A stretch of 64,000 nucleotides of DNA from NCBI GenBank assembly GCA_948144175.1, contig CANXME010001279.1:1-64000 (forward strand). Reading direction: 5' to 3'. A program made the position numbers and the translations under genes. The notes beneath the pieces were generated by a model. It was not told the DNA's origin and searched no databases. It saw only the letters and a program-made list of their open reading frames with translations. Source of the DNA: Closterium sp. NIES-65 (taxonomy: Eukaryota; Streptophyta; Zygnematophyceae; Desmidiales; Closteriaceae). Below are positions 34,684-62,047 of the stretch, piece by piece (position 1 is the stretch's first letter; each line of letters opens with the position of its first letter).

Positions 34684-34688
34684 AGAGT

Positions 34689-35564
34689 TGTTAGAGACTA
34701 AGGACGGAGTCTATGAAGATTAGGTGCCTAAATCTCTCAAAAATCGTTGGTCTCTATTTCTGGACAGAATAGTCGCGCTCACAAGAAACGCCGTCGACAA
34801 AAAACGCACTGTCAAAACTTCACCAAGTTCGGATATGTTGTAGCTCTATTTTGTGGCTACAATTTCCAAGTTGAATCATACGAAAAAGTGAAGTATTTCT
34901 TGAGTTATCAATTTTGGCGCACTAGAGGGTATGCTGCCATGGAATCTTAACTCAATCACAATTGTCTCACACAAGTTCACAATTACTACACAAGAGAGTT
35001 AGAGTAGCAATAAACCAGGTGGGATGGGATGAGGAGGACAAGAGGGAAGGTCCCAAGATACTCCCCAACCAAGAAAACCCCATGCCACACAATTCCCCTC
35101 TCCATAGGCAATCCCACATTCACTTTTGTCACTTTCCCAACCCATGCAATCCACCTTGCCCAACTTGGCCACACTTGCCAACCTGGTTTGGTTTCACCCA
35201 ACCATTTGGCAGCAACTACAGTAGAAAGGACGAATTTCCCAACCCCCAAAAGTCTGTACCCCATATTGAGTCAACCCCACAACTTCCCACAGTTGCCACA
35301 ATCAAATATGAAAAGCATACGAACTTCAACGTTCGTAACTTTCCTGTTCGTGCTCCGATTGAAGCGATACTTGGTTCTTCGGAAAGCTCTTGAGCAGAGG
35401 AGTCACTTCAGATATCTGCTCAAGCCAAATAACATTCACACACACTCAGAAAAACCAAACCGCACAAAACACAAATTCTTGCACATGCTCACACCACCAA
35501 GCAGCGCACGAGCACATAATGGGAGGCAGACAGACATGAATGCATATGATTGCATCACACAACA
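34689..35564 (-). repeat. LTR1, 3' LTR of element Y
   Basis: 876 bp. Read on the minus strand it begins TGTTGTGTGATGC after a GAGGGGGAG polypurine tract (about 35566-35577) and ends CTCTAACA. It is preceded on the plus strand by the TSD AGAGT (34684-34688). The partner LTR1 at 52750-53626 is about 97% identical by eye but in the opposite orientation. Confidence 0.93.
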
Positions 35565-37473
35565 AACTCCCCCTCTGGCTGCCAACCATCATCCCACATG
35601 CCATAGCTCAAGCATGCACCCTCAATGCACACTCATCCCAGCAAGCTTCATGCCCTTCCAATGCTCAGATTCAGCCAGGGGCTTGGTGAGAATGTCAACC
35701 GCCTGGTGATGGGTCTTCACAATCTCCAGCCCCACCTCCTTGTCCAGGAGCCTCCTCACCCAGTGCCACTTAGGCCTGATGTGTTTGGTCAGCCCATGAA
35801 GACAAGCATTCTTTGCTAGCTTCACCGCCGACTCATTGTCACAGAAAATCACTGTCGCCTCCCTCTGGCACACTCCGATCTCCTCCAACAAACGCCTTTG
35901 CCACACCACCTACTTTGCCCCATGATGCAGGGCCATGTAATCTGTCTCACACGAGGACTGCCCCATCTCGTTCTGCTTCTTGCTGCGCCCGCTCACTGCA
36001 CCACCTCCAAACAGGCACACATAGCCTCCAATGCTGGTGCCATCCGCCTTCACAGAGTTGAAGCTGGCGTCGGTGTAGCAGGTCAGGAGCATCTCCCCCT
36101 TGCCCAAATCAGTTGCACCCCTCTGCAGCCTCTGTCGCACAGCACTGTACTCCAAGCCCACTGATGCCGTAGCGCTCACATAGCGGACCAAACTCTTGGC
36201 CGCTTCCAGCTACTCATGACTGGGGCGTGAAACCACACTAGCAAGCCTAGATGTAGCAAAGGCAATGTCAGGCCGCGTGTGGTTAGCCGCATAGTTGAGT
36301 GCCCCCACCATGGAATGAAAAAGTTTCCTGTCACTCTCACCCACTACCTCTTCATCAGCACATGGCTCCACAGTGAACCCCGAAGGCAGTGGGGTGGCTG
36401 GCTTTCCTCCATCTTGCAGCCCATACTTCTCGGCCAGCCCCTCACAGTACTTCCTCTGGTGCAACCTCAACACTCCCTTGTCAAGGTCCCTCTCCACATG
36501 CATCCCCAGGTAGTACTTCACATCTCCCATCTTGGAACACTTGAACTGCATCTCCAGCATCTCCTCCACACGCTCAATCATTGCATACGACTCAGAGAAG
36601 AGCAGGATGTTGTCCACATACACCAGGAGCATGAGAAACTGCTCCTTGTAGCAGGAAAAAGCTGTGGTCACACCCACTCTTCTTAAACCCCCCTGCCAAC
36701 AGTGTCTCCTCTAGCTTGTGGTACCATGCACGAGGAGCCTGCTTCAGGCCATAGATGGCCTTCTTCAGCCTGCACACCCTGCCGCTCCCATCATCCAAAC
36801 CCTCAGGTTGTAACATGTACAGCTCCTCCAGAATGATCCCATTGAGGAAGGCGGTGGTGATGTCCATCTGCTTCACCCGCCATCCACGGTTTGCTGCCAT
36901 TGCCAGCGACACTTTCAATGTTGTGCCTTTCCCCACAGGAGCAAAGATCTCGTCATAATCCTTCCCCTTTGTCTGCTGAAACCCCTTAGCCACAAGCCTT
37001 GACTTGTAGCGGGTCAGCTCCCCATCAGGTCCGTACTTGTGCCTGAAAATCAGCTTGGAAGAAATGGCCTTCTTCCCAGGTGGCAGCTCACACAGCTCCC
37101 ACGTCTCATTCTCCAGCAGAGAGTCATACTCCTCCTTCACACTCTGCTTCCATTTTTCAGCATCCGGCCCACTCAATGCCTCAGCTAGCGTCTTGGGCTC
37201 AGGGACAGCTGCCCAGTAGCAGTGTGCTATCTCCTCCTCATCACACTGCTCAGCCACACTCCCAGCCCTTACCACCTTTGGCTTGCCAAAGCTCGGATAG
37301 GTCAGCCGGTTAGGAGGGCGCACATCCCTCCTTGGACGGTTTGCCGGACGTGCGGCACCTTATGGAGCACCTTGCTGCTGCTGCTACTGCGGCTGCTGCT
37401 GCTGCTGCTCCACCTCAGGTTCTCCCCCATCCTCAGTCACCCTAGAGATCTCCTCCTCTAAGACAGTGACCTG
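35565..37473 (-). pseudogene. RT-RNase H half of element Y pol
   Basis: Copia RT and RNase H, read leftwards from a Gln-rich linker. 37323-36592 is open, with WELCELPPGKK, IFRHKYGPDG, MDITTAFLNG and KAIYGLKQAPRAWY. The next frame has VYVDNILLF near 36615: the second Asp of YVDD is Asn, consistent with a C-to-T change at a CG on the other strand. RNase H blocks (CYTDASFNSVK, SCETDYMAL, FCDNESAVKLAKN, VDILTKPL) run to the end at 35622 in shifted frames. Protease and integrase are absent; the sequence to the right belongs to element X. Confidence 0.87.
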
Positions 37474-38286
37474 CACTTGTCTCGAAGGCCGCTGCACCTC
37501 ATCGGCCTCATTGCCCTCCATTTTCCCGCCTCCCTTTCCTGACCGTTTGCCATCACGGCCTCCACCACGTCCCGTTCCCTTGCCACCTTGCTGATCTGAG
37601 GGCTCCTCATCCTTAGTGGCCCCCCTCCCCGCCCCTTGCCACTTCTTGCCTTTACCCCCTTTGCCTCCTTGCACGGCGTAGCTGCTGCTCCCCTCTTCAC
37701 TTCCTCTCAATTGGCGCCTACAGAAGTCCTCTTCAAGAATTTTTGTGTGGATCCACTCCAACGTCCAAAGACTCTGGTTCTGGGGAAGGCTTAAGCCGCT
37801 CGTGAAGATCATCCAAGACTCTGGCAGCAGTGACAGCATCTTTACACGCTTGGTTTGCTCGGGGTAGACAATTCCGGCGATGGCAAGCTTGGCGTAGAGT
37901 TCTCTCACCTTGTCTAGGACCGGGTGAACAGATTCTCCTTCACTAAGGCGAAAGGTGGAGAGCTCTCTCTCCAACTTGAGAGTAGCTACAACTGATGTGG
38001 GGGCATGGAGGTCCTTGAGCACGGCCCATGCCTTGGGACCGCACTCTTCATCCGGAAGGAGGTGGGTGATGTGCTGGCGTTGGGTGAGATCTAAGCTTTG
38101 AGATAAGTAGTACCCGGCGGAAGAACGTTCGTCCCACTCGTTTTGAAGCTCCAGGGCACTAGGTCGTTTCTCGCTACCTATCATGAGCTTCAAAAGACCT
38201 ATCTGCCAAAAATACAGCCGCATCTTCCAAGACCAATCGTCATAGCCCTCTCCACTCAACTTGTCAATGGAGAAGTTCTTCAACAC
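37384..38286 (-). CDS. gag of element X, fused to Y linker
   Basis: ATG at 38286. The N-terminal two thirds is a copia gag domain (KLSGEGYDDWSWKM, YYLSQSLDLTQRQHI, PKAWAVLKDLHAP, LERELSTFRLSEGESV). A basic Gly/Lys-rich tail follows. No CCHC knuckle is seen. After about residue 260 the sequence passes through the 30-bp breakpoint into the Glu/Gln-rich linker upstream of Y RT, without a frame break until the TAG at 37384-37386. The open frame is therefore a fusion created by rearrangement. A different gag belonging to Y is at 53863. Confidence 0.82.
   Translation of the reverse strand: MLKNFSIDKLSGEGYDDWSWKMRLYFWQIGLLKLMIGSEKRPSALELQNEWDERSSAGYYLSQSLDLTQRQHITHLLPDEECGPKAWAVLKDLHAPTSVVATLKLERELSTFRLSEGESVHPVLDKVRELYAKLAIAGIVYPEQTKRVKMLSLLPESWMIFTSGLSLPQNQSLWTLEWIHTKILEEDFCRRQLRGSEEGSSSYAVQGGKGGKGKKWQGAGRGATKDEEPSDQQGGKGTGRGGGRDGKRSGKGGGKMEGNEADEVQRPSRQVQVTVLEEEISRVTEDGGEPEVEQQQQQPQ
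37474..37503 (-). other. Left inversion breakpoint, 30-bp shared sequence
   Basis: This 30-bp sequence is repeated exactly, on the plus strand, at 54287-54316. To its left lie Y linker and RT; to its right lies X gag. It is the best candidate for the site of the exchange between X and Y. Confidence 0.65.
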
Positions 38287-38424
38287 CTCTCTTAGCGGCC
38301 CTGGCTCGTCCGGGCTATCCTAGGCGCGGAGACACCAGATTCTTGGCTACCACTACTCGCGGGGGCTGAATTCCCTTCTCCAGGCGACCCCATTGATGGA
38401 TACGTTGAGAATGGCTAAGGACCA

Positions 38425-38436
38425 GCTCTGATACCA
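38425..38436 (-). promoter_or_regulatory. Primer-binding site of element X
   Basis: TGGTATCAGAGC on the minus strand, two bases inside the LTR2 end. It shows that the LTR to its right is a 5' LTR. Confidence 0.88.
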
Positions 38437-38438
38437 CG

Positions 38439-39655
38439 TGTTGACTCTAAATACTATGCGGAAGTGTTTAAAACTGGACCACGAAAACAAACTTGGCAAC
38501 ACTTAACTTCACTTTGAACCCTCCGAGTGTGACAGCTTGTCACCTCATAGCCAAGGGTATAACAGAAACAAAGTGAGTAGTTATGCCTTGCTTGATTTGT
38601 GGAGTGAGGAATCTGGTCGAGCAGCGTTTTGGCAGCACCACGTTACTTTTCTACTCTCGTCAATACGTAGTAGTAGAATTCCGAGCTTGAAAAAGCATAA
38701 TCGCATTGATTGACTTGAAGCAAATACAAGCACACATATATATAAAGTCCTAAACACACAAAGGAAAACATAAAGCAGATGCTTAACTGGAATCCAGGCC
38801 TTCGCTTTGCTGTAGTAGAAAACGGTTGTGAAGCTGCTGAAGAATTTGGCTCAATCTGCCTCATTGGAATTAACAGTAATCCACTTGAATTAAAAACAAA
38901 GTCCCCTGCTGATTCACGTCATGAATTTCCGCGAGTTCTCATGAGGAATCATGGATACTCGTGTGAGAAACCGTTTCCAGTTATAGAACGGATTTTACCG
39001 TTTTGTACCTGCGTCGAAATGATCACGCTAAGCAGCATGACTTTCGCGCGAAATCGGCTGTGTTCCAGGTCAGCGTGGGATACGGTTAGTCAACCAAAAT
39101 CCCGGCGCACCCTCGGTCAAGCAGAAAAATCCGATCGCTGATGCGATCGTGCTTTGTCCTGCGCATGACAGGGCCATAATGAGCCCTGTGTTGTTGCGAT
39201 CGTGCAACTGTGCACGGTCGCAACAGTTGCGGCACACACACGGGCCCTGTGGGGCCACATGCGCATGTCCGGACCCCATGCGCGGGTCCTGACTTTCGCA
39301 CACTTTTTGACCAGCTCGAAATTGGTCAAAGGGGCCGAGTCAAAGACTCGAGCCCAGCACCCCCCGACACACTCGACACTCGCCACGAGTACTCATGAAA
39401 ACTCGTGAGCTTTCATGAGCTTTCATGATGCTCGTAATTATCATGAACGTTCTTAGTAGTTCATGAAAATCAGTAAACAAACATGAGTCGTCATGAGAAT
39501 TCATGACTCGTCATGATCCGTCATGACTTGTCGTGTGCCCACAACAAAAACACATGAAACAGAATGCAAAAACGAATGCGCACAGAACACACACAAAATA
39601 CGGGAATTTATGCAGGCGGCTGGTTGCCGTGCAAAATTAAGATTTGCACCCAACA
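38439..39655 (-). repeat. LTR2, 5' LTR of element X
   Basis: 1217 bp. Minus strand: TGTTGGGTGCAAATC...AGAGTCAACA. It is followed on the plus strand by CGAAA (39656-39660), the reverse complement of TTTCG found after the other LTR2 (62043-62047). The first 50 bases and the last 500 or so match the LTR2 at 60706-62042 closely; the middle differs. Confidence 0.9.
39385..39535. repeat. Cluster of TCATGA palindromes in LTR2
   Basis: About nine CATGA-centred palindromic hexamers (mostly TCATGA) within 150 bp, in the part of LTR2 that would be U3. Absent from the corresponding part of the other LTR2. Confidence 0.7.
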
Positions 39656-39683
39656 CGAAATTTTCGCGCAGCTGTTGACATAG

Positions 39684-41027
39684 TGTGAGAATTCTAGCAA
39701 GGCTTAGGAGCCATAGCTAGTTAGGTAGGAGAAGTTGAGTTCGAGTTTAGGAAAGAATATCGAGAGGAATGAGTTCACTAATCAGAATGACAAGCACAAA
39801 TAGGTAAACAGCAACACAAGGAGGTGCACCACCAAACATGATGCAATATCTACACTACAACTGCAAACGATTATATAAAATATGTAAACATATTTTGACA
39901 CGCCCCCATAATTGATTGCAGGAGTAAGTGTAAAACGCCCACTCTGGTAAGTGTAAACCGCCCACGCTGGTCACCCACTCCATCCCCTCACCCTCCCCCT
40001 CCCCCTCCCCTTCCCCCTCCCCCACACACTGCTGCAGGAGCAGCAGAGGGGGGGAAGAGAGGAGAGGTGGAGGGACGGCTGCTGGGTGGTCTCACACCCG
40101 CCACCCCAGTGCCACTCCCCGGGCTCCCCCACACCCTCACACCCTCCCCCCCAGCGGCAGCTGCAGCAGTGGGAACAAAAGGAGGAGGAGGGGGGGGGGG
40201 GGGGGGGGGGGGGGGGCGACGCACGGCCTCCCCAGGCGCCAAAGCAGGCGGTAGAGGGGGCGACACCTGCCCCCCCCTTCCACGCGGCCCCCTCAGGTCG
40301 CCTCGACAGGTGACGGGAATAGGGGGGGGGGGGGGGGGGGGGCGGTGCACGTGCCCCCGGTTTGCCGCGGCTGGCGACGGGGCATGGCCAGGGCGGGGTC
40401 GGGGCCGCAAGTGGGCGGGGCCACAGGTAAGGTGGCGGGGCCGCAGGTACGGCGGCGCGTCGTACGGGCGGCGACGGGCCGGGACAGGCGGCGCACGGGC
40501 GGCGACGAGCCGGGACGGGCGGCGACGGGCCGGGACGGGCAGCGCACGGGCGGCGACGGGCCGGGACAGCGGCGTGGGGCCGGGACGGGCGGCGCACGGG
40601 CGGCGACGGGCTGGGACGGGCGGCGACGGGCCGGTACGGGCGGCGCCAGGGCGGCGACGGGCCGCGTAGGGTGGCGACGGGCCGCTAAGGGCGGCGACGA
40701 GGCCGCGTGAAGTAAGGCAAGGGGCACGTCACGGGGCGTGCCGAACACAGATTAGCAGCGGAAGCTATAGGGTAGGCCCACAAGTCAGGACCTTAGTAGC
40801 TCTGATACCATGTGAGAATTCTAGCAAGGCTTAGGAGCCATAGCTAGTTAGGTAGGAGAAGTTGAGTTCGAGTTTAGGAAAGAATATCGAGAGGAATGAG
40901 TTCACTAATGAGAATGACAAGTACAAATAGGTAAACAGCAACACAAGGAGGTGTACTACCAAACACGATGCAATATCTACACTACAACTGCAAACGATTA
41001 TATAAAATATGTAAACATATTTTGACA
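39684..41027 (-). mobile_element. Element H, non-autonomous LTR element (TSD CATAG)
   Basis: 217-bp LTRs at 39684-39900 and 40811-41027 with about 5 differences. CATAG is at 39679-39683 and 41028-41032. The primer-binding site (TGGTATCAGAGC, minus strand) is at 40799-40810. The interior is a GC-rich leader, poly-G runs (40192-40216, 40323-40342) and no gag or pol. The leader shares the GTCACC...GGCGAC hairpin region with element D, but the LTRs are a different family. Confidence 0.95.
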
Positions 41028-41032
41028 CATAG

Positions 41033-41559
41033 GCCCGACGTCGTCAACTGCCACTCATCGTGACAACTTCCGAAAATTTCATGCAGGTGCCGACGGAGGT
41101 CTGCTGACGCCACCTGCCACAAAAAACTTCCGAAATCGTTGGTAAATCGCAGCGGGATAGTAACTCGCGTTTTGACGTCGCGACAGCTACAACTGCTCGT
41201 TCCCCTGCAGGAGGGAGGTGACGGTCAATCGTGACCGCTCGAGGCAAGGATCTGGCGGTGCCGAAGGAGTGCCCTACAAAATTATGGCCGCGAGGAGCAA
41301 CTAACTCATTCTCCTGCCTGGCCTACGCAGCTCCTGGACCCCTAGACATCCTTTCTCGTTCCCCCCCCCCGAGGGGTAATACACTCTAAAAAGCAGTTTA
41401 GGCTAGGAAAGTAGCTCTGATACCAGATGTTATGAATAAACTTGCAGAGTGCGCAGTAAAACAAATGACAAGAATGGTTGACTACAGAATGATTGAATAC
41501 ACAAAGTGGCGAGGCCTAATTAGGAAAGAACTAGCTAGGCAAAGAGATAGGGCGAAGAT
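41033..41559. other. Unassigned, with primer-binding site and possible LTR end
   Basis: 41414-41425 reads TGGTATCAGAGC on the minus strand, two bases from a CA end at 41428. This fits the 5' LTR end of a fourth long-LTR element on the minus strand, cut by element K and perhaps continuing to 48095 (…ACTAACTAACA). No coding part of it was found. Confidence 0.4.
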
Positions 41560-41681
41560 TGAGAAAAGTAAAACGAGAATGAATGAACTATGGAATGAAA
41601 GTGATACAAGTATGCAACCCTAGAAATGTGTACCCCCTATGGGCTACCCCACTATAGCCTACAGAATATTATAATTTGACA
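41560..41681 (-). repeat. 3' LTR of copia K
   Basis: 122 bp with the group core (minus strand GGCTATAGTGGGGTAGCCC). The polypurine tract and its hairpin partner lie at 41682-41705. Confidence 0.94.
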
Positions 41682-41900
41682 CACCCCCATAGGCAAAGTG
41701 GGGGAGAACAAGGGGTCACAAGACCAGTCAAGCAAAGCAAAGCAAAGCTCAGGGTGGATCACAACGTCACCACACATTCTGAGCACAAGTTCAAAGGCCA
41801 AAAGTCCAGTTCACATGCAGGAGCACATATATATATATATATATATAAGAGGCTAAGCAAGCAAGAGCAGGAGTATATATATGTGACAGTACAAGCAAGG

Positions 41901-44155
41901 TCAAGAAGTGAGCAAGTGAGGCAAGACAGGCACAAGACCCAGCTGAGTGCAGAAGCGCTGATGATCACAAGGTGCAAGTGCCTTGGTGAAGACATCAGCA
42001 GTGTTGGCCTCGGAGGCCACGTACGCAAGCCGCAACTATCCACGCTGCTGTAGCTCACGAGCAAGGAAGTAGCGGAGAGCAATGTGCTTTGTCCTGTGCT
42101 CCAGTCGCTGCTCTCGACACAAGGCCAGCATGGCCTTGTTGTCTACGTACAGGACTGGAGGAGAACGAGGCGGCTCTCCAAGGTCGGTTAGCAGGTAGGT
42201 GAGCCAGCGAAGCTCCTGGGCAGCCATGGCCCCAGCTTAGATCTCAGCCTCACAACTGGAGCCGAGAACAGAAGACGAGCGGGTAGCCCGCCACGAAACA
42301 GAGCCGGAACCAAGACTGAAGGTGTAACCCTGTGACGACCGCTGCGTAGCCTGGTCGTCAGCCCAAGAAGCGTCCGCGTGCCCAGTGAGGACCACTGGAC
42401 TCCGCCCTCCAAGCACTATCCCCATGCCCGACGTACTGCACAAGTAGCGCAACACCCTCTTCGCTGTAGCCATGTGCTCTGGTCAGTGTCTCCCAGGAGC
42501 AACATAGCGTGCAAGAATGCTAAGAGGGTATGCAAGGTCAGGTCGTGTGCAGGTCATCAGGTACATGAGGCAGCCAACAAGCTCTGGATACGGGCCACTC
42601 GACTCTACGGACTCATCCGAAGGCAGAGCTGAGAGCGAGTGGCGAGTAGGCAGAGGAGTGGCCTGAGGCGAGGAGTACGTGAAGCCGAAGCGCTGAAGGA
42701 CCTGCTGCACCATGTGTGACTGAGTCAGAGTAATGGTGCGGCGTGCTCTGTCCCGGGTGATCTGCAAGCCAAGGTACCTGCGCAGTTCACCCGGGTCTGT
42801 GCACGTGTGTCTCTTCTGCAGCTCGGACTTCACTTAGGCGAGTCCAGCAGTGTCAGCTGTGGCAAAGACCAAGTCGTCGACGTACACGAGGATGTAGAAC
42901 GGCGGCAGAGAGGTGTCGGTGCGCAGAAACAGCGACGGGTCGGCAGTAGAAGGAGCAAACCCAAGAGCCGCAAGTGTAGTGCTCAGTGTGTCGTGCCACT
43001 CACGTGGCGCCTGGCGGAGACTGTAGACTGGATGCCGGAGACTCCACTGGGTACCAGGAGGGAAAGACCTAGTGAAGCCAGGTGGGCGGCGCAGCCAGAT
43101 CTCCTCGTGCAGACTGCCCTGCAAGAAAGCAGTGCTGAAGTCCAGAGAGTGCAGCTCGTAGTCACGGTGAGCAGCAACGTGCAGCAGGACCCGAAGAGTG
43201 GTCATCTTCGGGGTGGGGGAGAAGGTCTGAAAGTAGTCAACTCCCTGCCGCTGACTGAAGCCACGAGCCACGTAACGCGCCTTGAAGACAGGCGGAGAAC
43301 CCGGCGGCCGCTTCACCCTGAAGATCCACATGCCACTGACTATGTTCGCCCCAGGAGGGGGGACAGTGTCAACGTAGGTGCCTGTGGACTTCCAGGAAGC
43401 CATCTCTACATCCATAGCTGCTTGCCACTGAGAGGAGTAGGGACCCTCTATCGCCTCCGCGTAAGAGCGCGGAGTCGGGATGTCAAGTGCATCCGGGTCT
43501 CCCTCAGGGGTAAGCAGTACGGACACGAGATGAGGTGAAGCTGCTGCCAGACACTGGAACTCCTCCTGCCTTTCCTCAAGGACGTCCGTGCCAAGGGCAC
43601 ACTCACCCCCAACGCACGGAGGACAGATAGACTCAGACTCAGCGACAAGACTAGCAGTGTAGTCTAGGCGACAGCGAGCAGCAAAGTCGACGAGCTCAGT
43701 AACAAGGGAAGACGCAGCAGAAGACTCGAAGGAAGGGTCAGTGACGGCAGTAGCAAGGAGACGCGTGATAGTAGGACTGGCAGCACGAAGAGAGTCCGAC
43801 TCCGGGTCGGCAAGAGCAGGAAGAGAGGACTCAGGAGGAGAAGGCAAAGGGGCACGCAGAGGAGCAGTAGACGGACGCAGAGACATCCGATGCGTGCCAG
43901 GGACAGGCGGAGGACGCTGACGCGAACTGCGACCACTAGCGCGAGCAGCACGAACAGGCGACGCAGGACGACACGCAGGCTCACGACGCTCAGTAAGGCC
44001 TCCAATAGGACCAGCGTAGGGAGAAGGAGCAAGCAAAGGGGAGGCAGGCTTTAGCTGTGGCTGTGACGGGACAGACTGGGGACCCTCCAAGGGAGGAGGA
44101 GGACCAGTAGAAGGTGGAAGACCAAGAACCTGCTGCAGGAGAGGAACGAAGTACG
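41901..44155 (-). pseudogene. RT-RNase H of copia K (stops and shifts)
   Basis: 44090-42834 is open for 418 codons: Ser/Pro-rich linker, SWKSTGTYVDTVPPPG, KARYVARGFSQRQG, LDFSTAFLQG, and YVDDLVFA near 42890. Stops at about 42834 and 42237 are both TAC to TAA changes. RNase H (HADASWADD, SSCEAEI, YVDNKAM) continues to 42036 and, after a shift, to the family end near 41901. Confidence 0.86.
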
Positions 44156-44591
44156 GTCAAGGCCGCGTGGCGACGCCAGAAACAGCAGGGACAGCACCAG
44201 AACCCCTAGCAGGAGCACCCGCTCCAGCAGCACCTCGAGCAGCTCCAGAACCTCCAGCAGCACCAGGAGCACCCCCAGCAGGACCCTCAGTGGTAGTCTC
44301 AGCGCCAACACCCTCACCAGCACCAGCTCCAGTTGAACCCGCATGCCCAGCAGCTCCAGTACTCCCAGTACGAGCACCTCCGGGACCCGCGACAGCAGCA
44401 CCCTCAGTAGGAGAAGAACCTCCAGCACCAGCAGCACAGCTCCAGCGCCGGGCAAACCACTCGCGCAGCTCCCGTGGCGAGAGTGGCTCCCGGCGAGACA
44501 AAGCACCCGGGGAACCTCCAAGTCCGAGCCAAAGCTCTGCCTGAGCTGGAGACGAGCTGCGCGGATCCAGTCGATCAGCACCTCAGTGACA
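44156..44591 (-). pseudogene. Deleted integrase remnant and linker of copia K
   Basis: A short remnant MLIDWIRAARLQLRQSFGSDL (integrase core, after the first catalytic Asp) is joined directly to linker sequence (SRREPLSPRELREWFARRW and Gly/Ala-rich repeats). The stretch from HSDRGGEF to the end of integrase is gone. Confidence 0.75.
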
Positions 44592-47570: not shown

Positions 47571-47582
47571 TGCTCGATACCA

Positions 47583-47704
47583 TGAGAAAAGTAGAACGAG
47601 AATGAATGAACTATGGAATGAAAGTGATACAAGTATGCAACCCTAGAAATGTGTACCCCCTATGGGCTACCCCACTATAGCCTACAGAATATTATAATTT
47701 GACA
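47583..47704 (-). repeat. 5' LTR of copia K
   Basis: 122 bp; TGGTATCGAGC (minus strand, 47572-47582) lies directly inside. Confidence 0.94.
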
Positions 47705-47709
47705 AAGAT

Positions 47710-47937: not shown

Positions 47938-47969
<32 letters not shown>

Positions 47970-51279: not shown

Positions 51280-51284
51280 AGGCA

Positions 51285-52060: not shown

Positions 52061-52069
52061 CCTAAGCAG

Positions 52070-52744
52070 GCGGTAAGCTTTTGCCTGGGATGTCCGTTCG
52101 CCTTCCTACGTCTGGGTAATTTTCTGCGACAACGAGTGTTAGGCCTAGATGAAAGCCCAGGGCAATATAGGATTGCCTCCGGGAAAATAGCAAGTCAGCT
52201 CTCGTTGGGGCCGCGTGAAGCCAGTCCCTAATTCCTCTAGCCTGGAGGCTAGGGAGGCAGACCTCGTGACCATTATCCTCCCCCAACTTATCTACTCTGG
52301 TCTCCTCTATGAACCCCGTCCAACTCCCTGCTATTGGTATTTGTGCAGAATCTCTTGTGCCAACCCTGACAGGCAAGCTCTCGTATCAACCAGTGACTCC
52401 CCTCCTTCCGTTGCTGGTGGAGTACTATCTGCCATGAGTACCGGTACATGTGCTTCCCGTTGCAAGGGTGATTATGCGTGGTTGGTAGGTTGCTTAAGAG
52501 GAGGTGTGAGCAGTTGATTGAGAAAAGATAGGCAGCTAGCGCATTTAAAATCGGGCCGATCAGGCCCAAACTGTCAAGGAATACCGGTAATATGGCTTGG
52601 CACCAGAGCAGACTCTACTCTAGTTCATCGATAGGTGCGTGCAAGTGGGCAGCCCGCAGTGTAGTCTTCAATAGCCTCTCACTCCAACCCCTCAATTTTT
52701 CCCGCGATAGCAAGTTAGCCAGCATTGAATGGAGAAGGTATGAT
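52070..52744 (-). pseudogene. Decayed non-LTR-type reverse transcriptase, 3' part
   Basis: Minus-strand continuation of the relic at 33800-34683. A W-L-x-A-x-P block (RDWLHAAPTRADLLF) followed by ALGFHLGLTL, near 52100-52230, is typical of the region downstream of RT in some non-LTR elements. It meets element Y at the TSD (52745-52749, ACTCT, the reverse complement of AGAGT). Confidence 0.58.
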
Positions 52745-52749
52745 ACTCT

Positions 52750-53626
52750 TGTTGTGTGATGCAATCATATGCATTCACGTCTATCTGCCTCCCATCATGT
52801 GTTCGTGCGCTGCATGCGTGGTGTGAGCGTGTGCAAGAATTTGTGTTTTGTGCGGTTTGGTTTTTCTGAGTGTGTGTGAATGTTATTTGGCTTGAGAAGA
52901 TATCTGAAGTGACTCCTGTGCTCAAGAGCTTTCCGACGAACCAAGTATCGCTTCAATCGGAGCACGAACAAGAAAGTTGCGAACGTTGAAGTTCGTATGC
53001 TTTTCATATTTGATTGTGGCAACTGTGGGAAGTTGTGGGGTTGACTCAATATGGGGTACAGACTTTTGGGGGTTGGGAAATTCGTCCTTTCTACTGTAGT
53101 TGCTGCCAAATGGTTGGGTGAAACCAAACCAGGTTGGCAAGTGTGGCCAAGTTGGGCAAGGTGGATTGCATGGGTTGGGAAAGTGACAAAAGTGAATGTG
53201 GGATTGCCTATGGAGAGGGGAATTGTGTGGCATGGGGTTTCCTTGGTTGGGGAGTATCTTGGGACCTTCCCTCTTGTCCTCCTCATCCCATCCCACCTGG
53301 TTTATTGCTACTCCAACTCTCTTGTGTAGTAATTGTGAACTTGTGTGAGACAATTGTGATTGAGTTAAGATTCCATGGCAGCATACCCTCTAGTGCGCCA
53401 AAATTGATAACTCAAGAAATACTTCACTTTTTTGTACGGTTCAACTTGGAAATTGTAGCCACAAAATAGAGCTACAACATATCCGAAATTGGTAAAGTTT
53501 TGACAGTGCGTTTTTTGTCGAAGGCGTTTCTTGTGAGCGCGACTATTCTGTCCAGAAATAGAGACCAACGATTTTTGAGAAATTTAGGCACCTAATCTTC
53601 ATAGACTCCGTCCTTAGTCTCTAACA
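52750..53626 (+). repeat. LTR1, 5' LTR of element Y
   Basis: 877 bp, TGTTGTGTGATGC...CTCTAACA. TGGTATCAGAGC at 53629-53640 shows it is a 5' LTR. Its TSD ACTCT (52745-52749) is the reverse complement of the one at the other LTR1. Confidence 0.93.
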
Positions 53627-53628
53627 AG

Positions 53629-53640
53629 TGGTATCAGAGC
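53629..53640 (+). promoter_or_regulatory. Primer-binding site of element Y
   Basis: TGGTATCAGAGC, two bases inside the LTR1 end; the classic plant copia form. Confidence 0.9.
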
Positions 53641-53862
53641 TGATTAAGGACCTTGTGGGGAGTCGACTGAAGTGTGAAGACCATCCTAGACCCACCATGG
53701 CCTGTGGGCGTGCCTAAGTGGAGTTCTGGAGGTTGGATGTGACTTCCGCTAAGGGGAAACTCTGCCGAAATTTCGTTGGCGCCGGCACTTGTGAAGATTG
53801 TGTGGATCTACATTGTGACCAGCAAAGGGGGGAGCTGAAACCTCTGATTGGGAGCATAGGAG

Positions 53863-54225
53863 TTGAATCAAGGGAGTGGAGATGCAGCTGAGAAGAGGAG
53901 TGAGCCGTCACCATCCAAGATCGAAGCTTTGGATGGCTCCAACTATGAGGAATGGAGCGGGCGGATGAGGAGCGCCTTCAAGCGCTACAACCTGCTGAAA
54001 TTGGCTATGGGAGAGGAGAAGATGCCCGAGGAAGGAGATGGCCACGATCGGTGGATTGAGCGGAGCGCGGTGCTGTACGACTTGATTCTACAGTCGGTCA
54101 ACAACGACATGTTCCAACTCATCAAGGATTTGGTGGAGTTGGATGATTCCGGACTTCATCGGTTACCGCTCTGGCGCCACTCCCATCCTTGGTCCTGTTG
54201 GAGGGGGTCCACCATGAAGGTTTAG
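53863..54225 (+). pseudogene. gag of element Y, 5' fragment
   Basis: Copia gag N-terminal domain (KIEALDGSNYEEWSGRM, RYNLLKLAMGEE, ERSAVLYDLILQSVNND). It is recognisable to about 54150, after which the frame enters unrelated sequence and stops. A different gag from that at 37384-38286, so X and Y are distinct elements. Confidence 0.78.
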
Positions 54226-54316
54226 AACGACACTTGAACCAAGGATGACCCACCCTTTCGCAATACCAGGGTTTAGGGTTTTGGTCGATGAGGTGCAGCG
54301 GCCTTCGAGACAAGTG
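54156..54316. other. Right inversion breakpoint zone
   Basis: Plus-strand Y gag ends near 54156. The minus strand of 54156-54290 then encodes a gag-type zinc knuckle (C-E-R-V-G-H-x4-C with the first Cys replaced). 54287-54316 is the 30-bp sequence shared with 37474-37503. After it comes truncated element G. The order suggests a small foldback or local inversion at the breakpoint. Confidence 0.55.
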
Positions 54317-55116
54317 GGAGACGAAGGAGGAGGAGGAGCAGGGGAGACCACACATCCGTCACCCCCTACTCGCCACCCCCAGACCCTAACGTAGGGCAGG
54401 GCGGGACAGCGGGTAGGGAGGTTAGGGGGGGGGGGGGGGGGGACGCGCGGTCTCCTAGGGCGCCAAAACAGGCGGCATAAGGGGCGATACTCGCCCCCCT
54501 CCCCCAGGTCGCGGCCCCCGAAGGAGCTGCGACGGGCAACGGGAAAAGGGGGGGGGGGGGGGGCGGTGTACATGCCCCCGGTGCGCCGCGGCTGGCGACG
54601 GGGCCGCGAGGGTCGGCGACGGGGCCGCTGGCGGCGGCGACGGGGCCGATAGGAGCGGCGACGGGGCTGCTAGGGTCGGCGACGGGGCCGCTGGCGGCGG
54701 CGACGGGGCCGATAGGGGCGGCGACGGGGCCGCGAAGGGGCCGCGAGGGGCCTGGAAGGGCAGCGACGAGCCGCAAAAGGGGCGGCGACGGGGCCGCGAA
54801 GGGGCCGCGAGGGGCCTGGAAGGGCGGCAACAGGGCCGCGAAGGGGCCACGAGGGGCCTGGAAGGGCGGCAACGGGGCCGCTAAGAGTAGGGCGAGGGGC
54901 ACGCTACGGGGCGTGCCGAACACAGAGTAGCAGCGGAAGCAGTTGGGTGGGCCCACAGGCTAGGACCGTAGATGCTCTGATAGCATGTGAAGATTAGAAC
55001 GAGAATGAAGAAGAGGAGGGGTTTCACTAGCAGCAATGAGGATACATATAGCAAACCCTAGATGGGTTGCACTCGCTATAGAGCACCCCACTACAGGCTA
55101 GAGAATAACATTCTCA
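54317..55116 (-). mobile_element. Element G, D-like non-autonomous element, 3' end deleted
   Basis: Minus strand: a D-type LTR at about 54987-55116 (GCCTGTAGTGGGGTG core, CTAGGGTTTG), a primer-binding site (TGCTATCAGAGC, rc at 54974-54985), and a GC-rich leader with GGCCCCGTCGCCGCC units (54600-54900). The end is abrupt at about 54317, inside sequence that in D precedes the 3' part. No second LTR. It abuts the zinc knuckle of copia Z, so it was probably inserted in Z gag. Confidence 0.75.
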
Positions 55117-56014
55117 TAGGGAGTGCTGAATCTGCGGCGACCCCGACCATCTCTCCTTCGAGTGCCCCGACCGCGATGACATCGACGAGGATGACAACAA
55201 GGGAGGCCGTGGTTGATCAGCCAATCGTCGCCTGTGTCGAGATGAGAAGCGGCGCAAGGAGAAGCAAGAGTCGAAGAAGACGTCGTCGACGAAGGATGTC
55301 GACAGCTCCAGCGGCAAGAGCCGGGGCGACGGGGAAGCGTCGTGCTCGATGGTCGGCATGGTGGAGCCGGCGGTCTTGCTAGCGCCGGAGGCTGGCGAGG
55401 ACTTCCACGCGGTGGCGGCAGCTGTGCAGGCCAACCCGATGGCGGTGCTGCTCGACAACGGGTGCTCCCACCACCTGATGGGGACGAAGTCAGTCTTCGT
55501 CGACATGGGGCCGAGCGACGGGGTGAAGCACGTGTGTGGGTTCAACGGGGTATTGCAGCCTGTCGAGGACCGCGGAACCATCGCTCTGCAAGGAGAGGCT
55601 GGAAAGCGGGTCCTCATCCCCGACGTACTCTACGTTCCGGGCGTTCAGGCGAACCTGCTGTCTGCTGGCTAGCTGAAGGAGAGCGGAGTGCTGCTGTAGG
55701 GCGATGGAGACGAGATGCTGCTCGTCGCCGTGACCGGGGAGGTGCTCGGTCGAGCATCCTACACCGGACGAGTCCTCTGCACCAACCTTCGCCCCTGCTT
55801 GACGCAGTCGAAGTCGACCGAGGTGGTGGCTCTGCGGACGATCGTCTCGGCGACGAAGACGACCCCCGATAGGATGCATGCGCGGCTCGCACACGTCAAC
55901 GTCGACACGATCAAGAGCTCGGCAAAGCATGATGTTGCTACTGGGCTCGACATCACGTCGTCGACCGGAGCAGACCCACCGTGTGTCTCGTGCGTAGGAG
56001 GAAAGCTGGCGTGA
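55117..56014 (+). pseudogene. gag zinc knuckle, protease and pre-integrase of copia Z
   Basis: The zinc knuckle C-x2-C-x4-H-x4-C at 55124-55165 has a TGA (55127-55129) as its second residue. The protease site reads LLDNGCSHHLMG (near 55451), with Asn where D-S/T-G is expected, which would probably inactivate it. The pre-integrase module has HARLAHVN and C-x2-C. In-frame stops are at 55670-55672, 55697-55699 (both from CAG) and 56012-56014 (from CGA). Confidence 0.8.
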
Positions 56015-57270
56015 CACACCTTCCCTACCAAGGGCTCGGACGCAGCGGATGCGCTGGCTGTCGTGCACATTGACTTGTGCGGGCCATTTCGGGTGGCTGC
56101 CAAGGATGGCAGCTTGTACTTCCTGCTGCCAAGGATGGCAGCTTGTATGGGCAATGCCGGTCGCTAAGAAGAGCGACGTGCTGCGGGAGTTCCAGCGGTG
56201 GCTGGTGCTAGTGGAACGGCAGTCGAAGAAGTCGGTGCTGTCGCTTCGATCCGATCGAGGAGGGGAGTTCCTCGGGAAGGCGTTCACCGACTTCGTCGAC
56301 GAGAAGGGCATCGTCCACGACCTGACGTGCCCCTACACTCCGCAGCAAATGGCATGGCTGAGCGGGAGATGCGCACGGTCATCGAGTCCGTGCGGACGAT
56401 GCTGTTGCACATGGGCGTGCAGCACCACTGGTGGCACCTTGCTCTACGACAAGCGGTCTGGGTGCGCAACTGCTTGGAGTGATCGACGACGCCACCGGGA
56501 ACGACTCCGTACCAGCTGCTGACCGGGCAGAAGCCCGACCTTACGCTAGCGCGGGTGTGGGGCTGCATGGTGCAGTTCATGGTTCCCGAGCAGCAGCGCG
56601 GTTGGAAGCTGGCGCCGAAGGCTCGTTGGGGGCTTCACCTGGGTGTGTCGTCGGAGAGCAAGGGCTGGGAGGTGCTCAACCTGACCGCCAACAAGGTGGT
56701 CACATCGGTCGAGGTGATCTTCTATGAGACGCTGTCGCTGGAGGTGTGGAGGGCGAAGTATGGGCCGGCGTCGGAGCGGACGCAGGCACACCCGCCGACG
56801 GACACCTCGACGGCAACGGTTCCACTACTCGTCGGAGTCGATGAGCCTGCTGATGAGGATGTTGTGGAGGTTCTTCCACCTCCCCCTTTTCTTGCTCCTC
56901 CTTCTCCCGTCGCAGATCGACCTATTTCGACACCTGTGCCGGCCACCGGCGATGAGGGGAGCCTTGAGGCGTCGCCTGTGGCGCAGGCCAGTGGCATCAC
57001 CGGCGGACGACAAGGCGCCAAGCTCGTCGACCACAATGGGAAGCCGTCGACGACAGGGGAGCAGCAGACAGGGGAGCCGGTCGAACAGGAGGCAACAGCA
57101 GGGGTACACTTGACAAGGGGAGCAGCAGCCTGAGCGGTCGACATGGGAGCTGTCGAAGTCAGCAGCAGACGAGCAGCCGGTCAACGGGTCGAAGCAGCTG
57201 GTCGACGATGAGGACGTCGATGAGGAAGGGGAGCAGTCGGCGGGTGAGGAGTCCACCGACAGCAACGAGG
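56015..57270 (+). pseudogene. Integrase of copia Z
   Basis: HIDLCGPF near 56070 (first Asp) and SDRGGEF near 56255 (second Asp). A one-base loss just before MAEREMRT near 56350 puts the catalytic Glu out of frame. A 29-bp tandem duplication (22-bp repeats at 56097 and 56126) disrupts the core. 56555-57133 is open and carries the C-terminal domain (WGCMVQFMVPEQQRGWKL) and an acidic/Pro-rich linker. Confidence 0.8.
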
Positions 57271-59079
57271 TGGAAGTGCCAATCACGAAGCCTGAGCCGC
57301 GACGCACAGGTCGAGCTCGACGGCCGCCGGAGCGGTTGAGCTTCCACGCCTGCCTACCGCCAGCTGCCTTCACCACGGTGTACGACGAGGTCAACGACGA
57401 CCTGTGGTTTGACGATGCCGAGGAGGATGAAGACCTGCCGGAGCTCGACCCTGACGTGCATGCTGATCCCAAACGCCGCTGGGACATCGCCACGATGACG
57501 GTGAAGGAGGCGCTGTCGAGCTGGAAGGGCGAGGCAGTGAAGGCCGCCATGGAAGAAGAGATCTGCAGCTTCATCGGTATGGGGACTTGGGAGCTGGTCG
57601 AACGCCCACGCGAGGTGAACATCATGAAGAACCAGTGGGTGCTGACGATGAAGTACCGCATCGACGACACCATCGAGCGCGAGAAGGCGAAGCTGGTCAT
57701 GAAGGGCTTCACGCAAGTGTACGGTTCCAACTACGACGAGACGTACTCGCCGGTGAACAGCTACGTAACGCTGAGGATCTTCCTCAACATCGTCGCCGTC
57801 CTCGACCTCAACCTGATGCAGCTCGAAATTAAGAACGCTTTCTTGCAGAGCAAGCTCGACAGGGTGCTCTACATGTACCAGCCGGACTACTTCGACGACG
57901 GGACCGGCCGGGTGTGTAAGCTGCTGAAGAGCCTCTACGGGCTGAGCAGTCGCCGCTGCTATGGTATAGAGCTCTTGACAGTGTGCTGCTGGGCGCTGGC
58001 TTGAAGAAGAGCCAGGTCGACAAGGCGCTCTACTTCAAGGCCGGCGACGACGGAGTGACCTGCTGGGTGCTGGTCTAGGTCGACGACCTGCTCGCCGCCA
58101 GCAGCAGCATCGCGATGCTGAAGGAGCTGCTGGAGGCCGCCTTCAAGCTGCGTGAGATCTCGCCGGTGGTGAAGTACCTTGGGCTGGAGATCGTGCGCGA
58201 TAGGCCGGCTAGGAAGCTGTGGCTGCACCAGCAGGGCTAGGCCGACAAGCTGAGCAGGCGCTTTATCGACGAGGAGCAGGACGGTCGAGTCCCGAAGACG
58301 CCGGTCTCGGTCGACGCCTACGCTCAGCTGACGTTCAACTGACAAGGAGGCTCAGGAGCGCAAAGAGGAGGAGTACCGGCAGAAGATAGGCTCGCTGTAG
58401 TTCGCGGTGATGACGACGAGGCCACACATTGCATTTGCCTGCAGCAAGATGGGGAGCGGCCTCATGGAAAGGAGCGACCAGCATTGGCGCAAGGCCGACC
58501 GCTGCCTCGCCTACCTCGCCGACACCCACGACACTGCCCTAGAGTTCGGCGGTGGACCGGAATCATTGGAGCTGATCGGCTACGTCGATGCCGACGACGT
58601 AGGCGACAAGCAGAACTGGACGAGCACGGGAGGCTACGTCTTCGTCTACAGAGGGGCCGTCGTCTTTTGGTCGGGCTCGCGCATCAAGTGCGTGACATTG
58701 TCATCGACCGAGTCGGAGTACGTGGCGGCCACGGATGCCGGCAAGGAGGGGCGTCGACTTCGCTTCCTCCTTGCGGAATTCAAGCTGCTTAACGCTGGAA
58801 AGCCGACCATCCTCCGCGTCGACAACAAGTCGGCAATCACGGTCGCTGAAGGCTTGGGGTTGACGGGCAACCTCAAGCACATGGAGCGACGCTACGCCTG
58901 GCTGTAGCATATGGTGAGGCGCGGGAAATTTGTGCTGAAGTACATCCCGACCACCGAGCAGCCGGCGGACTTCCTGACAAAGGCGCTGCATTTTCCTTCT
59001 TTCAACCGGTGCTCGTTCGCCATCGGCCAAGCTCGTCTAGCCGACGTCAGCGACGGCAACGACGAGGTACAGCATTAGG
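57270..59079 (+). pseudogene. RT-RNase H of copia Z
   Basis: 57270-58004 is open: RRPPERLSFHACLP, MGTWELVERPREVN, YDETYSPVNSYVTLR, LEIKNAFLQ and LKSLYGL, then a shift. The active site reads V-stop-V-D-D (TAG at 58076-58078), where Tyr is expected. Further stops at 58238-58240, 58398-58400 and 58905-58907 are all TAG at expected CAG. RNase H motifs are YVDADDVGD, SSTESEYVA, RVDNKSAITVAEG and ADFLTKAL (near 58970). Confidence 0.82.
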
Positions 59080-59207
59080 TGCCGTGGCCTTCTGCACGGC
59101 TGGTGCGGTGACGGCGTGCTGTGTGTGGGGTGCACGCTGAGGATGAGTTTTCTCTGTGAAGTACTGCCGTGTGGGCTGGAGGCCCAAGCGTGAGCGCGGC
59201 AGGGGAG

Positions 59208-60174
59208 TGTTAGAGGGAGTGGAGTATTGGCCCCGCCCTCGCTTGGGCAACGGAGACGACTTGGTCGGATGTACGGGAGTAGCAGCCGACCGTTCACAGT
59301 GGGAGAGCTACTAGACAGGCTTCGTCGAGCTACAGAGGACCGCTGTGGTGTTGCTGTCGACCAGGACCTGCAGTTTTACCAGGAGGTCTCCGGAGCATCC
59401 CGTCGACCTGCCGTTCGACCGGGGGGTCTCCGGAGCATCCCGTCGACCTGCAGTTCGACCGGGAGGTCGACGGAGCAGTCAGAAGGGGTCCGTCGACCAG
59501 GGGGTAGCTCGACGGGAGTTGTGGTTGACCAGAGGCACTTGGTGGTCGACCTGAGGGACCTGATGGTCGACCAAAAGCAGTGGTGGTCGACTGGAAGCAC
59601 CTGGTGGCCGACCGGGTCGACCGGGTAACCTGCTCGACGAGTTTTGCAGAGGCACGCGAACGTCGTTGAGGTTGCGATGGCGCACGCGACTGCGGGCTGG
59701 TATCCCTGAGTCGATGTGGCTCGTCACGCGCAGACAACAGCCGACAGATGCCCAATGAGGCAAGTCGGGCAAATCGTCTACGCGCACCTGCGAGTGTGCA
59801 CACTGCTGTGTTCTACGGGGCAATGCTGGACAGCCGCTCCGCTGCAGCGTTGGCACGCCGTCGGCCTGCTCTGTTGGCAAGTCGCCTTTGTGCAATGCTG
59901 GCGCGGCTCCTCTATGCAACGCTGGCAGGCAGTCGACCGAGCTGTGCTGGCGGTCGACCAGGCTAGCAGCAGGGTTGCTAGGTGCCTGATGTAGTTATTG
60001 TTGTCATTGCTTGTTCAATCATTCTGTAATTCGAACTTTGCTAGTGGAAACTCTTGCCGATTTCTCTTGTGAATGTGCAAGCACTAAGGAACCAAGCAAA
60101 GCTACGATCACCTCTAGTAGTTCGTGCCAAACCCCGTAGTGTAGCTCACTACCGTTGTAGAGTGACTCTCCGCA
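59208..60174 (+). repeat. 3' LTR of copia Z (LTR3)
   Basis: 967 bp, TGTTAGAGGG...CTCCGCA, preceded by GGCAGGGGAG (polypurine tract). Homologous along its length to the solo LTR at 31629-32816, except for fewer 40-bp repeats. CGAGA follows and would be the TSD; its partner is lost with the 5' end. Confidence 0.9.
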
Positions 60175-60612
60175 CGAGAGAGGGAGTTGTTTCTCACAAG
60201 GTATGCTGATGCAATTTGGGCATCGGAAAAGGAAGACATGTCCTCTGTGGGAGGATATGTGTGCGTGATTGGTGGTGGGCCTGTGAGCTGGAGGTCTAAG
60301 AAACAGGTGGAAACGGCGGGATCTTCTGCTGAAGCCGAGTATATGTCCATGTACTGTGCAGCCAAGGAGCTGATTTGGCTGAGGAAGCTGCTGGAGGAGA
60401 TAGGACTTGAGCAGAAAACGACGACACCGCTGTTTTGTGACAGCTCCAGTGCCATTGCAATGTCAAAGAACGCGGTGCTGCATGGGCTCACCAAGCACAT
60501 GCAAATTAAATGGCATTGGCTGCGCAAGGAAGTGCAGAGGGGATCCATTCAGCCTCTCTATGTGAAAACGCAGCAGCAGCCGGAATATTTTCTCACGAAG
60601 CGGCTGGCTTAA
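60175..60612 (+). pseudogene. RNase H fragment of element X
   Basis: Copia RNase H C-terminal part: RYADAIWASEKEDM, GGYVCVIGGGPVSW, SSAEAEYMSM, FCDSSSAIAMSKN and GLTKHMQIKWHWLR, with TAA at 60610-60612. Open from 60187. The RT and first RNase H part are absent upstream, replaced by copia Z. Homologous to, but distinct from, the RNase H of Y at 35622-36191. Confidence 0.83.
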
Positions 60613-60705
60613 GAACCTCACTGGCGCTGTGCTAAGCTGTGCGGTATGAGCCTTAACTAGGCTCATGCAAGGAGGTGCGAGCAGGCGACTGCTTGAGGGG
60701 GAGTT

Positions 60706-62042
60706 TGTTGGGTGCAAATCTCAATTTTGCACGACAACCAGCCGCCTGCATGAAGTCCCGCATTTCGTTTTGGGCCCCCCGGACAAATCAGGGGGCCCGG
60801 CATGTATGACCCTGTATTCAGCAGGGTTGGGGCGAATCTCGGCCCTTTAGGCTTCAGGGCTAAAAAATCGGGAGCGTCATTTCAACTACCAAGCTTACAA
60901 CTACGTTTGAGATCAACGACAAGCAAGTAAACACGACAAGAAGAGAAATAATTAGCGTCATATCACTACGCACGCTTTGCAGGCTTCCTAGCCTTTGCAG
61001 AACCGATGATCGTCTGCACATCTACTACCCAACCTTCAGGGTAGTTCTTGTGCACTTCTACCCAACCTTAACCGTCACCCACTCCACAGAGAGCGAGCTG
61101 TGATTGGTTTAAGCACAAGTTCTAGGCTGAGTTGAATTTGTGGCCCAACCAAGCAACTCGAAATCGCCTTGTTGGATGCAATCAGGTTAGAAACGAAGGG
61201 GGAAGGAGAGGAGGAGTGGTGGGGGGGGGGAGGGGAGTGGAAGGGGGGTCTCGAGAGATTTTGTTCCAGGGCTCGCCTAAAATCTGCCCTTTACACACCA
61301 AGCCTGAGCCCGAAATCAGCCCTGTAAAGAATCAGGGCCAGAATATTTCCAACCCATCAATTTCAGTTTTCAAGGGCAACCGAGCCATGTAATTCAAGGT
61401 CCAGCAGGGCAAACGCCCTGCAAGCGACAGCCCTGGTGCACAGTTGCACAATCGCAACAAGACAGGGCTCATTATGGCCCTGTCACGCGCAGGACAAAGC
61501 ACGATCGCGTCAGCGATCGGCTTTTTCTGCTTGACCGAGGGTGCTTCGGGATTTTGGTTGACTAACTGTATCCCGCGCTGACCTGGAACACAGCCGATTT
61601 TGCGCAAAAGTCACGTTACTTAGCGTGATCATTTCGACGCAGGTACAAAACGAAGCGTTTTCTACTACAGCAAAGCGAAGGCCTGGATTTCAGTTAAGCA
61701 ACTACTTTATGTTTTCCTTTGTGTGTTTAGGACTTTATATAAATGTGTGCTTGTATTTGCTTCAAAGTTAATCAATGCGATTATGCTTTTTTAAGTTCGG
61801 AATTCTACTACTATGTGTTGAAGAGAGTAGAAACGTAACGTGGTGCTGCTGAAACGCTGCTCGACCAGATTCCTCACTCCACAAATCAAGCAATGCATAA
61901 CTACTCACTTTTTTTCTGTTATACCCTTGGCTATGAGGTGACAAGCTGTCACACTCGGAGGGTTCAAAGTGAAGTTACGTGTTGCCAAGTTTGTTTTCGT
62001 GGTCCAGTTTTAAACGCTTCCACATAGTACTTAGAGTCAACA
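60706..62042 (+). repeat. LTR2, 3' LTR of element X
   Basis: 1337 bp, TGTTGGGTGCAAATC...AGAGTCAACA, preceded by a TTGAGGGGGAG polypurine tract (60692-60703) and followed by TSD TTTCG (62043-62047). It matches the left LTR2 at both ends but has a different middle part. Confidence 0.92.
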
Positions 62043-62047
62043 TTTCG

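Follow-up and report, generated by a model that had tools for sequence, protein, structure and literature searches.

Related Rearrangements and the Closterium Locus

In the Galileo work on Drosophila buzzatii, exchanged target-site duplications (TSDs) were taken as the mark of ectopic recombination (PMC2775673). The locus compared with it in this study lies in a window of 64,000 bp, the whole stretch of DNA that was analyzed, which forms the first 64 kb of the 995-kb contig CANXME010001279.1 (hereafter C1276) of Closterium sp. NIES-65 (assembly GCA_948144175.1; 874 Mb in 2400 contigs). Much of the window consists of long terminal repeat (LTR) elements, two of which, X and Y, have had their halves exchanged by an inversion of 16,644 bp. 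As in the Galileo inversion 2z3, two elements in opposite orientation have exchanged TSDs, both are chimeric, and the inversion can be read from the TSDs. The cases differ in that 2z3 concerns one family and a homologous exchange, whereas X and Y represent two families with non-homologous joins, losses, and inserts.

Three other described systems share part of these features. Pol theta scars left by alternative end joining with templated inserts (PMC5068794) have small microhomology, loss at the break ends, and inserts copied from beside them, but they are deletions with mostly short inserts, whereas the Closterium event is an inversion with pieces of 116, 16, and 31 bp; moreover, reversed inserts are a minor class in that paper, while both long pieces are reversed here with respect to the nearest uninverted flank. 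Inverted templated insertions in yeast (PMC11724301) are ~5–34 bp long, originate from beside the break, and have 0–5 bp of microhomology on their other side; the 31-bp duplicate of Y described below is of the same size, but the yeast insertions involve a foldback on one end, and the duplicate stands at the opposite junction of the inversion. Extrachromosomal DNA that is reinserted after its circle has been cut at a different position (PMC7188851) would yield the same order of pieces, with the difference that the described cases are duplications elsewhere and the Closterium segment was kept at its own locus. A literature search for exchanged TSDs or chimeric LTRs at inversions of LTR retrotransposons found no paper, which does not show their absence from print. 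The event is of a known kind and has left an unusually readable record.

Two Copia-Type Elements Split between Two Sites

X and Y are two Ty1/copia-type elements, each divided between a left site on the minus strand and a right site on the plus strand (Table 1). Both have LTRs with TG..CA ends, a primer-binding site, and a 5-bp TSD, and copia-type proteins were recognized by Pfam on the minus strand of the left site: the copia gag domain (PF14223, within 37384–38319) for X and RVT_2 (within 36592–37359) for Y. The start of the Y gag was identified by similarity only. The gag proteins of X and Y are 37% identical over 78 aa, and the two elements belong to different families.

Neither site contains a matching TSD pair of its own; both pairs match across the sites only, and the chance of both matches, calculated from the local 5-mer composition, is ~5e-7. 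An earlier note on this DNA had described these matches, four LTRs in swapped halves, and primer-binding sites. The TSDs read as it stated, the LTR1 and LTR2 pairs were found as described (LTR2 only in parts), and the primer-binding sites proved to be a perfect TGGTATCAGAGC at 53629–53640 (plus strand) and 38425–38436 (minus strand). Four other insertions in the window have 5-bp TSDs at their own sites, namely three elements resembling terminal-repeat retrotransposons in miniature (TRIM-like; ATCTG, CATAG, and AGGCA) and one solo LTR (GGTTG).

The two LTR1 copies aligned with 856 matches and 20 mismatches, giving a Kimura two-parameter distance (K2P) of 0.023 over 876 sites. The LTR2 copies are alike in parts only (390 bp at 94.6%, 217 bp at 93.5%, and ~60 bp at 92%) and differ in their middles, where the LTRs of a single insertion would be expected to agree; K2P was 0.053 (389 sites) and 0.068 (217 sites) in the shared parts. 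Because these parts diverge more than the LTR1 copies, X is probably the older of the two elements. Of the 40 places scored from 870 candidates, 35 at other positions in the genome matched the middle of the right LTR2 (query 74 or 76 to 746–751), and the spacing of the matching parts is much alike in the X-family member on contig C1813 (382 and 190 bases) and in the left LTR2 (377 and 171). The right LTR2 has therefore gained a dispersed repeat and lost family sequence. The differing LTR2 middles had raised the possibility of two unrelated LTR2 elements, which was rejected because the right copy carries a dispersed repeat there and the X flanks join cleanly. The repeat itself (60763–61436, ~0.7 kb) ends, by eye, in a hairpin with CTGG and a T behind it, reminiscent of a Helitron end. 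The RNase H assigned to X in the earlier note is similar to the Y frames (54% over 61 aa and 49% over 80 aa), from which its label is taken, and no match to this frame was found in Pfam.

Insertion Sites and the Inverted Segment

Joined flanks of each element were compared with the genome as empty-site queries. The X query consisted of 41034–41333 reversed (300 bp), 39656–39683 reversed (28 bp), and 203 bp from position 62048, with joins at 300 and 328; base 41033 was not included, and the alignments show a 1-bp gap there. Among the 40 places scored from 2554 candidates, 37 matched through both joins (query 1 to 398–402, 85–87%), two of which were inspected base by base, and the remaining three were the locus itself on C1276 and on the overlapping contigs C1709 and C1253 (query 1–306).

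The Y query, 300 bp ending at 34688 plus 300 bp reversed from 52744, gave eight matches: five to the locus itself (two on C1276, two on C1709, and one on C1253), two weak ones left of the join, and one through the join. The last was found on contig C1851 (65%, query 224–486, E 6e-6) and is ungapped over 263 bp. The 186 bases to the right of the join include 114 identities, a value reached by none of 20,000 shuffles in the fixed register, and no other register on either strand does better. The coding-frame scores were 106 to the left and 155 to the right of the join, compared with 66/44 and 34/29 for the other two frames. The Y site gives far weaker evidence than the X site, since the right flank alone has no BLAST match to C1851 at E 1e-3. 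The Y insertion site (34389–34688 with 52445–52744 reversed) looks like old coding sequence with a distant relative at C1851:556469–556731, and we take it to resemble a retroelement protein.

The TSDs and the two empty-site tests confirm that 37511–54154 is inverted and that the halves pair as the earlier note had proposed, with strong support from the X site and weaker support from the Y site. Its size estimate of ~16.8 kb was reduced to 16,644 bp once relatives of the elements had set the junctions (37511|37510 on the left and 54154 to 54313–54316 on the right). An uninverted copy was not found in the 874-Mb genome by a search with the inner flank: 51300–52760 is complete on C1276 only, and the next matches are partial and at most 75% identical (40 of 1975 candidates scored). 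The TSDs and the repeated insertion sites serve as a ruler by which the ancestral order, the breakpoints, the losses, and the likely sources of the scraps can be read from one assembly without an uninverted copy.

Junctions and Lost Sequence

At the left site, the X break was placed by 37 non-self matches (40 of 1522 candidates were scored, three being the locus itself), which end at query 930 (35 matches), 928 (one), and 907 (one); query 930 corresponds to position 37511. Past this point, native X continues into the zinc-knuckle region, as read in two relatives, whereas the window continues into the Y linker, whose context is the same as in the Y relatives L054 and L010. The join has 0 bp of microhomology.

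The Y break was placed by the relatives whose match reaches gag (10 of 30 loci; some are near-identical and may be duplicates of each other). All 10 leave the window at 54154 (seven) or 54148 (three) and continue with native sequence. The Y copies on contigs C53 (one mismatch) and C1592 (none) have the linker with its 31-bp stretch as native sequence. Within six substitutions, the stretch was found at no other locus besides the window, C1709, C1253, C53, and C1592, though most of the loci compared stop short of it. The distance from the gag break to the 31-bp stretch is 2263 bp on C53 and 2259 bp on C1592, so that, after subtraction of 6 bp, Y has lost 2257 or 2253 bp between gag and the linker preceding the reverse transcriptase. 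The pieces lost from Y, taken from C53, had no match in the window at E 1e-5. By comparison with the relative on C1813, X has lost 2976 bp (~2.98 kb) after a 116-bp piece; the only match of this lost sequence in the window (77% over 159 bp) lies in the Y reverse transcriptase, away from the breaks. Contrary to the expectation of the earlier note, reversal of 37.49–54.30 kb would not restore two normal elements: Y lacks ~2.26 kb, X lacks ~2.98 kb, and the right junction contains reversed X sequence.

The right junction is a patchwork of 163 bp, in which 116 bp of X in reverse are followed by 16 telomere-like bases and then by 31 bp duplicated from Y. The X piece matches the X family in reverse (89–97%) at all 39 non-self places among the 40 scored of 265 candidates, and in seven copies (C1813, C2371, C2126, C1782, C1530, C1479, and C1416) it begins exactly 3 bp beyond the X gag cut. 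A reading of 54155–54285 as unattributed sequence was dropped, reversed X extending to 54269. The 31-bp piece starts 6 bp inside the broken end of Y (3 bp if the 34-bp version with one mismatch is taken), so that the two junctions carry an inverted duplication. The piece shares AGTG with a truncated TRIM-like element, these being the final four bases of the piece and the opening four of the element, whose boundary was set by three relatives in the window. Microhomology at two joins of the right junction is 1 and 4 bp, and both long pieces are oriented as the flipped segment.

The 16-bp filler could possibly derive from a telomere, from a TRIM-like element, or from chance. A TRIM-like relative has a 13-base match to it at 26108–26120, in the opposite orientation and 42 bp past the homologue of the TRIM break. 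The genome contains arrays of TTTAGGG, for example at C64:136584–136730, C64:142086–142495, and C131:130405–130677; a query of four units had 2267 matches in forward and 788 in reverse orientation, with 0 and 2 for backwards controls. Together with the primer-binding sites, these arrays suggest a member of the green lineage.

Two elements that were not named in the earlier note, the TRIM-like element and the larger part of a third copia element, W, stand between the right junction and the X RNase H. W lacks its 5' LTR and gag start, and its rve match (30.6 bits) is under the cut-off of 32.6. The place where W entered X is given by 39 non-self X-family matches, all beginning at 60176 or 60178, and one native X was read across it. 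In addition, W has lost its start and the TRIM-like element its end.

Table 1. Coordinates of the features at the two sites of the inversion, in window positions.
Feature	Position	Strand	Basis or remark
TSD of Y, 3' copy	34684–34688	-	AGAGT as shown, ACTCT on the minus strand; direct read
3' LTR (LTR1) of Y	34689–35565	-	97.6–97.7% to 52750–53627
Y 3' half: linker, reverse transcriptase, RNase H, polypurine tract	35566–37510	-	RVT_2 (PF07727), relatives; last two parts by similarity and by eye
Left junction, X gag flush with Y linker	37510–37511		On C1276, C1709, C1253
X 5' half: primer-binding site (38425–38436) and gag up to zinc knuckle	37511–38438	-	Pfam, primer-binding-site search, X-family matches
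Inverted segment	37511–54154		16,644 bp; TSDs and two empty-site tests
5' LTR (LTR2) of X	38439–39655	-	Pairs in parts with right LTR2
TSD of X, 5' copy	39656–39660	-	CGAAA as shown, TTTCG on the minus strand; direct read
TSD of Y, 5' copy	52745–52749	+	ACTCT; direct read
5' LTR (LTR1) of Y	52750–53627	+	Pairs with 34689–35565
Y 5' part: primer-binding site (53629–53640) and gag start	53628–54154	+	10 relatives match to 54154 (7) or 54148 (3)
X zinc-knuckle piece, reversed, 116 bp	54154–54269	-	39/39 non-self scored matches; alignment to L055, L056
Telomere-like filler, 16 bp, GGTTTAGGGTTTTGGT	54270–54285		Sequence; genome TTTAGGG arrays
Y linker duplicate, 31 bp, perfect	54286–54316	+	Copy of 37474–37504; 34 bp with one mismatch
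Truncated TRIM-like element	54313–55110	-	Pieces 83–92% like 25247–26750; boundary from three window relatives
Copia element W, zinc knuckle (by eye) to 3' LTR (59208–60174)	55111–60174	+	RVT_2 91 bits; W LTR relative 31629–32816
X 3' end: RNase H frame, polypurine tract	60175–60705	+	39 non-self X-family matches, 89–92%, starting 60176 or 60178
3' LTR (LTR2) of X	60706–62042	+	Middle ~60763–61436 is a dispersed repeat
TSD of X, 3' copy	62043–62047	+	TTTCG; direct read

Assembly Support

The window contains no N bases. Two other contigs overlap it: C1709 with its first 45 kb (22 mismatches and 86 gap openings, in three aligned pieces) and C1253 with all of its 44 kb (61 mismatches and 127 gap openings). 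Their matches to the window stop at 45,240 and 44,667, respectively. The left junction is carried by all three contigs; the overlapping two end between the sites, so the 16.6-kb spacing is given by C1276 alone. The contig-end overlaps of C1709:1–45157 and C1253 with window 1–45240 (44–45 kb, ~99.4–99.9%) were left unmerged in the assembly.

Proposed History and Alternative Explanations

The arrangement is best explained, with a probability of about 0.78, by chromosome breakage and error-prone end joining that inverted the 16.6-kb segment between X and Y. Non-homologous breakpoints, microhomology of 0–5 bp, loss at the breaks, and short inserts from beside the breaks, by which end joining is recognized, were all found. 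Ancestrally, Y would have stood on the minus strand within older coding-like sequence and X on the plus strand within a dispersed repeat, ~13 kb from Y. X would already have held W, and W the TRIM-like element, a nesting that has to be inferred since the far sides of both are gone. Y would have been broken between gag and the linker before the reverse transcriptase, and X twice, at its zinc knuckle and within the nested TRIM-like element, after which the intervening segment would have been rejoined the wrong way round. On the left, the X gag end would have been joined flush to the Y linker end; on the right, the Y gag end would have been followed by 116 bp of X, the 16 telomere-like bases, the 31-bp Y duplicate, and, at the 4-bp microhomology, the TRIM-like element. 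The losses would have comprised ~2.26 kb of Y, ~2.98 kb of X, the start of W, and part of the TRIM-like element.

All steps would have belonged to a single episode, and the pieces presumably arose through alternative end joining or replicative template switching. DNA synthesis would have been required for the 31 bp, as both copies now exist, while the 116-bp piece may be a moved fragment. Scraps from both breaks share one junction, since the X piece starts 3 bp past the X break and the Y duplicate 6 bp inside the Y end. A more specific and tentative reading is that the right junction is a fossil of failed repair attempts, in which wrong partners met: the Y gag end would have copied 116 bp of the X end and the TRIM end 31 bp of the Y end (starting from the 4-bp match), to within 3 and 6 bp of the breaks, and the ends so extended would then have been joined to each other. 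Both copies would then have been made on the strand with its 5' end at the break, an unusual template that lowers the odds of this reading. If it is true, one sequenced chromosome would record which ends met during the inversion.

Several observations weigh against breakage with end joining as set out above. The right junction is present on C1276 alone, and C1709 and C1253 both end between the two sites (44.7–45.2 kb), within a copia copy. The middle of Y could have been lost before the inversion, and the loss of family sequence adjoining the inserted repeat in the right LTR2 is left unexplained. The 116-bp piece is 97% like the copy on C32, whereas the X gag is 89% like it; this difference could mean either that X is a mosaic or that the piece originated in a different copy. 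Both long pieces are reversed with respect to the nearest uninverted flank, an orientation unusual for inserts copied from the opposite end, and 116 bp is long relative to the short templated inserts in the cited papers.

Among the alternatives, an excised circle keeps the most credit, though it is unlikely. The segment and the 116-bp X piece would have been closed into a circle, X end to Y gag, at 1 bp of microhomology, then opened again where the segment meets the piece, and reinserted flipped. Two outcomes are predicted, one of which is the observed order (left Y linker, flipped segment, flipped piece, TRIM-like element), and the reinsertion of circles has a precedent (PMC7188851). The circle must have reopened no more than ~116 bp from its closing point within 16.6 kb, and the 31-bp duplicate of Y still requires a copying step.

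A little less probable again is that no 16.6-kb inversion took place and that the two sites were connected by a reciprocal exchange between distant loci or by an erroneous join in the assembly near 45 kb. C1709 and C1253 both stop at 44.7–45.2 kb, and among the contigs seen only C1276 links the sites; against this, the window is free of N, the left junction is also found on two other contigs, and scraps from both breaks in one junction are an unexpected product of an assembler.

Staggered breaks in Y, filled in to give the 31-bp inverted duplication and accompanied by a separate Y deletion that captured the X fragment, seem quite improbable. Inversions with staggered breaks appear in Drosophila papers, and the inverted duplication that they would leave is present at the two junctions, oriented as the flipped segment. 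The right copy of the 31 bp is separated from its native upstream neighbor by reversed X and telomere-like bases, and an additional deletion with filler would be required.

Ectopic homologous recombination between inverted X and Y, which was also the mechanism of the earlier note (inverted repeats as the inversion substrate), is very improbable: exchanged TSDs, oppositely oriented chimeric elements, as in the Galileo case, and the perfect 31-bp inverted repeat at the junctions would suit it, but X and Y are not one family, non-homologous positions were joined with loss on both sides and a reversed X insert in the right junction, and recombination at the 31 bp itself was rejected, since the stretch is Y-family linker, carried by Y relatives, whereas native X has the zinc knuckle there. 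At this locus, exchanged TSDs cannot mark ectopic recombination, since the two elements belong to different families, were broken at positions that do not correspond, and show losses and scraps; as a warning, exchanged TSDs at an inversion are alone no proof of homologous recombination between elements.

Other Features of the Window

Scans of the window with Rfam (gathering level) and for tRNAs were empty, four open reading frames in its left half had no Pfam match, and searches of viral contigs with two window proteins gave no relative. Four related copia-like copies with GC-rich minisatellites (400–6856, 9047–15551, 16867–23717, and 41560–47251, the last on the minus strand) are 80–90% alike over long stretches. 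The TRIM-like elements with the intact TSDs listed above are located at 25247–26750, 39684–41027, and 49350–51279 and have LTRs of ~130–220 bp and GC-rich arrays inside. The solo LTR with the TSD GGTTG (31629–32816) belongs to the W family.

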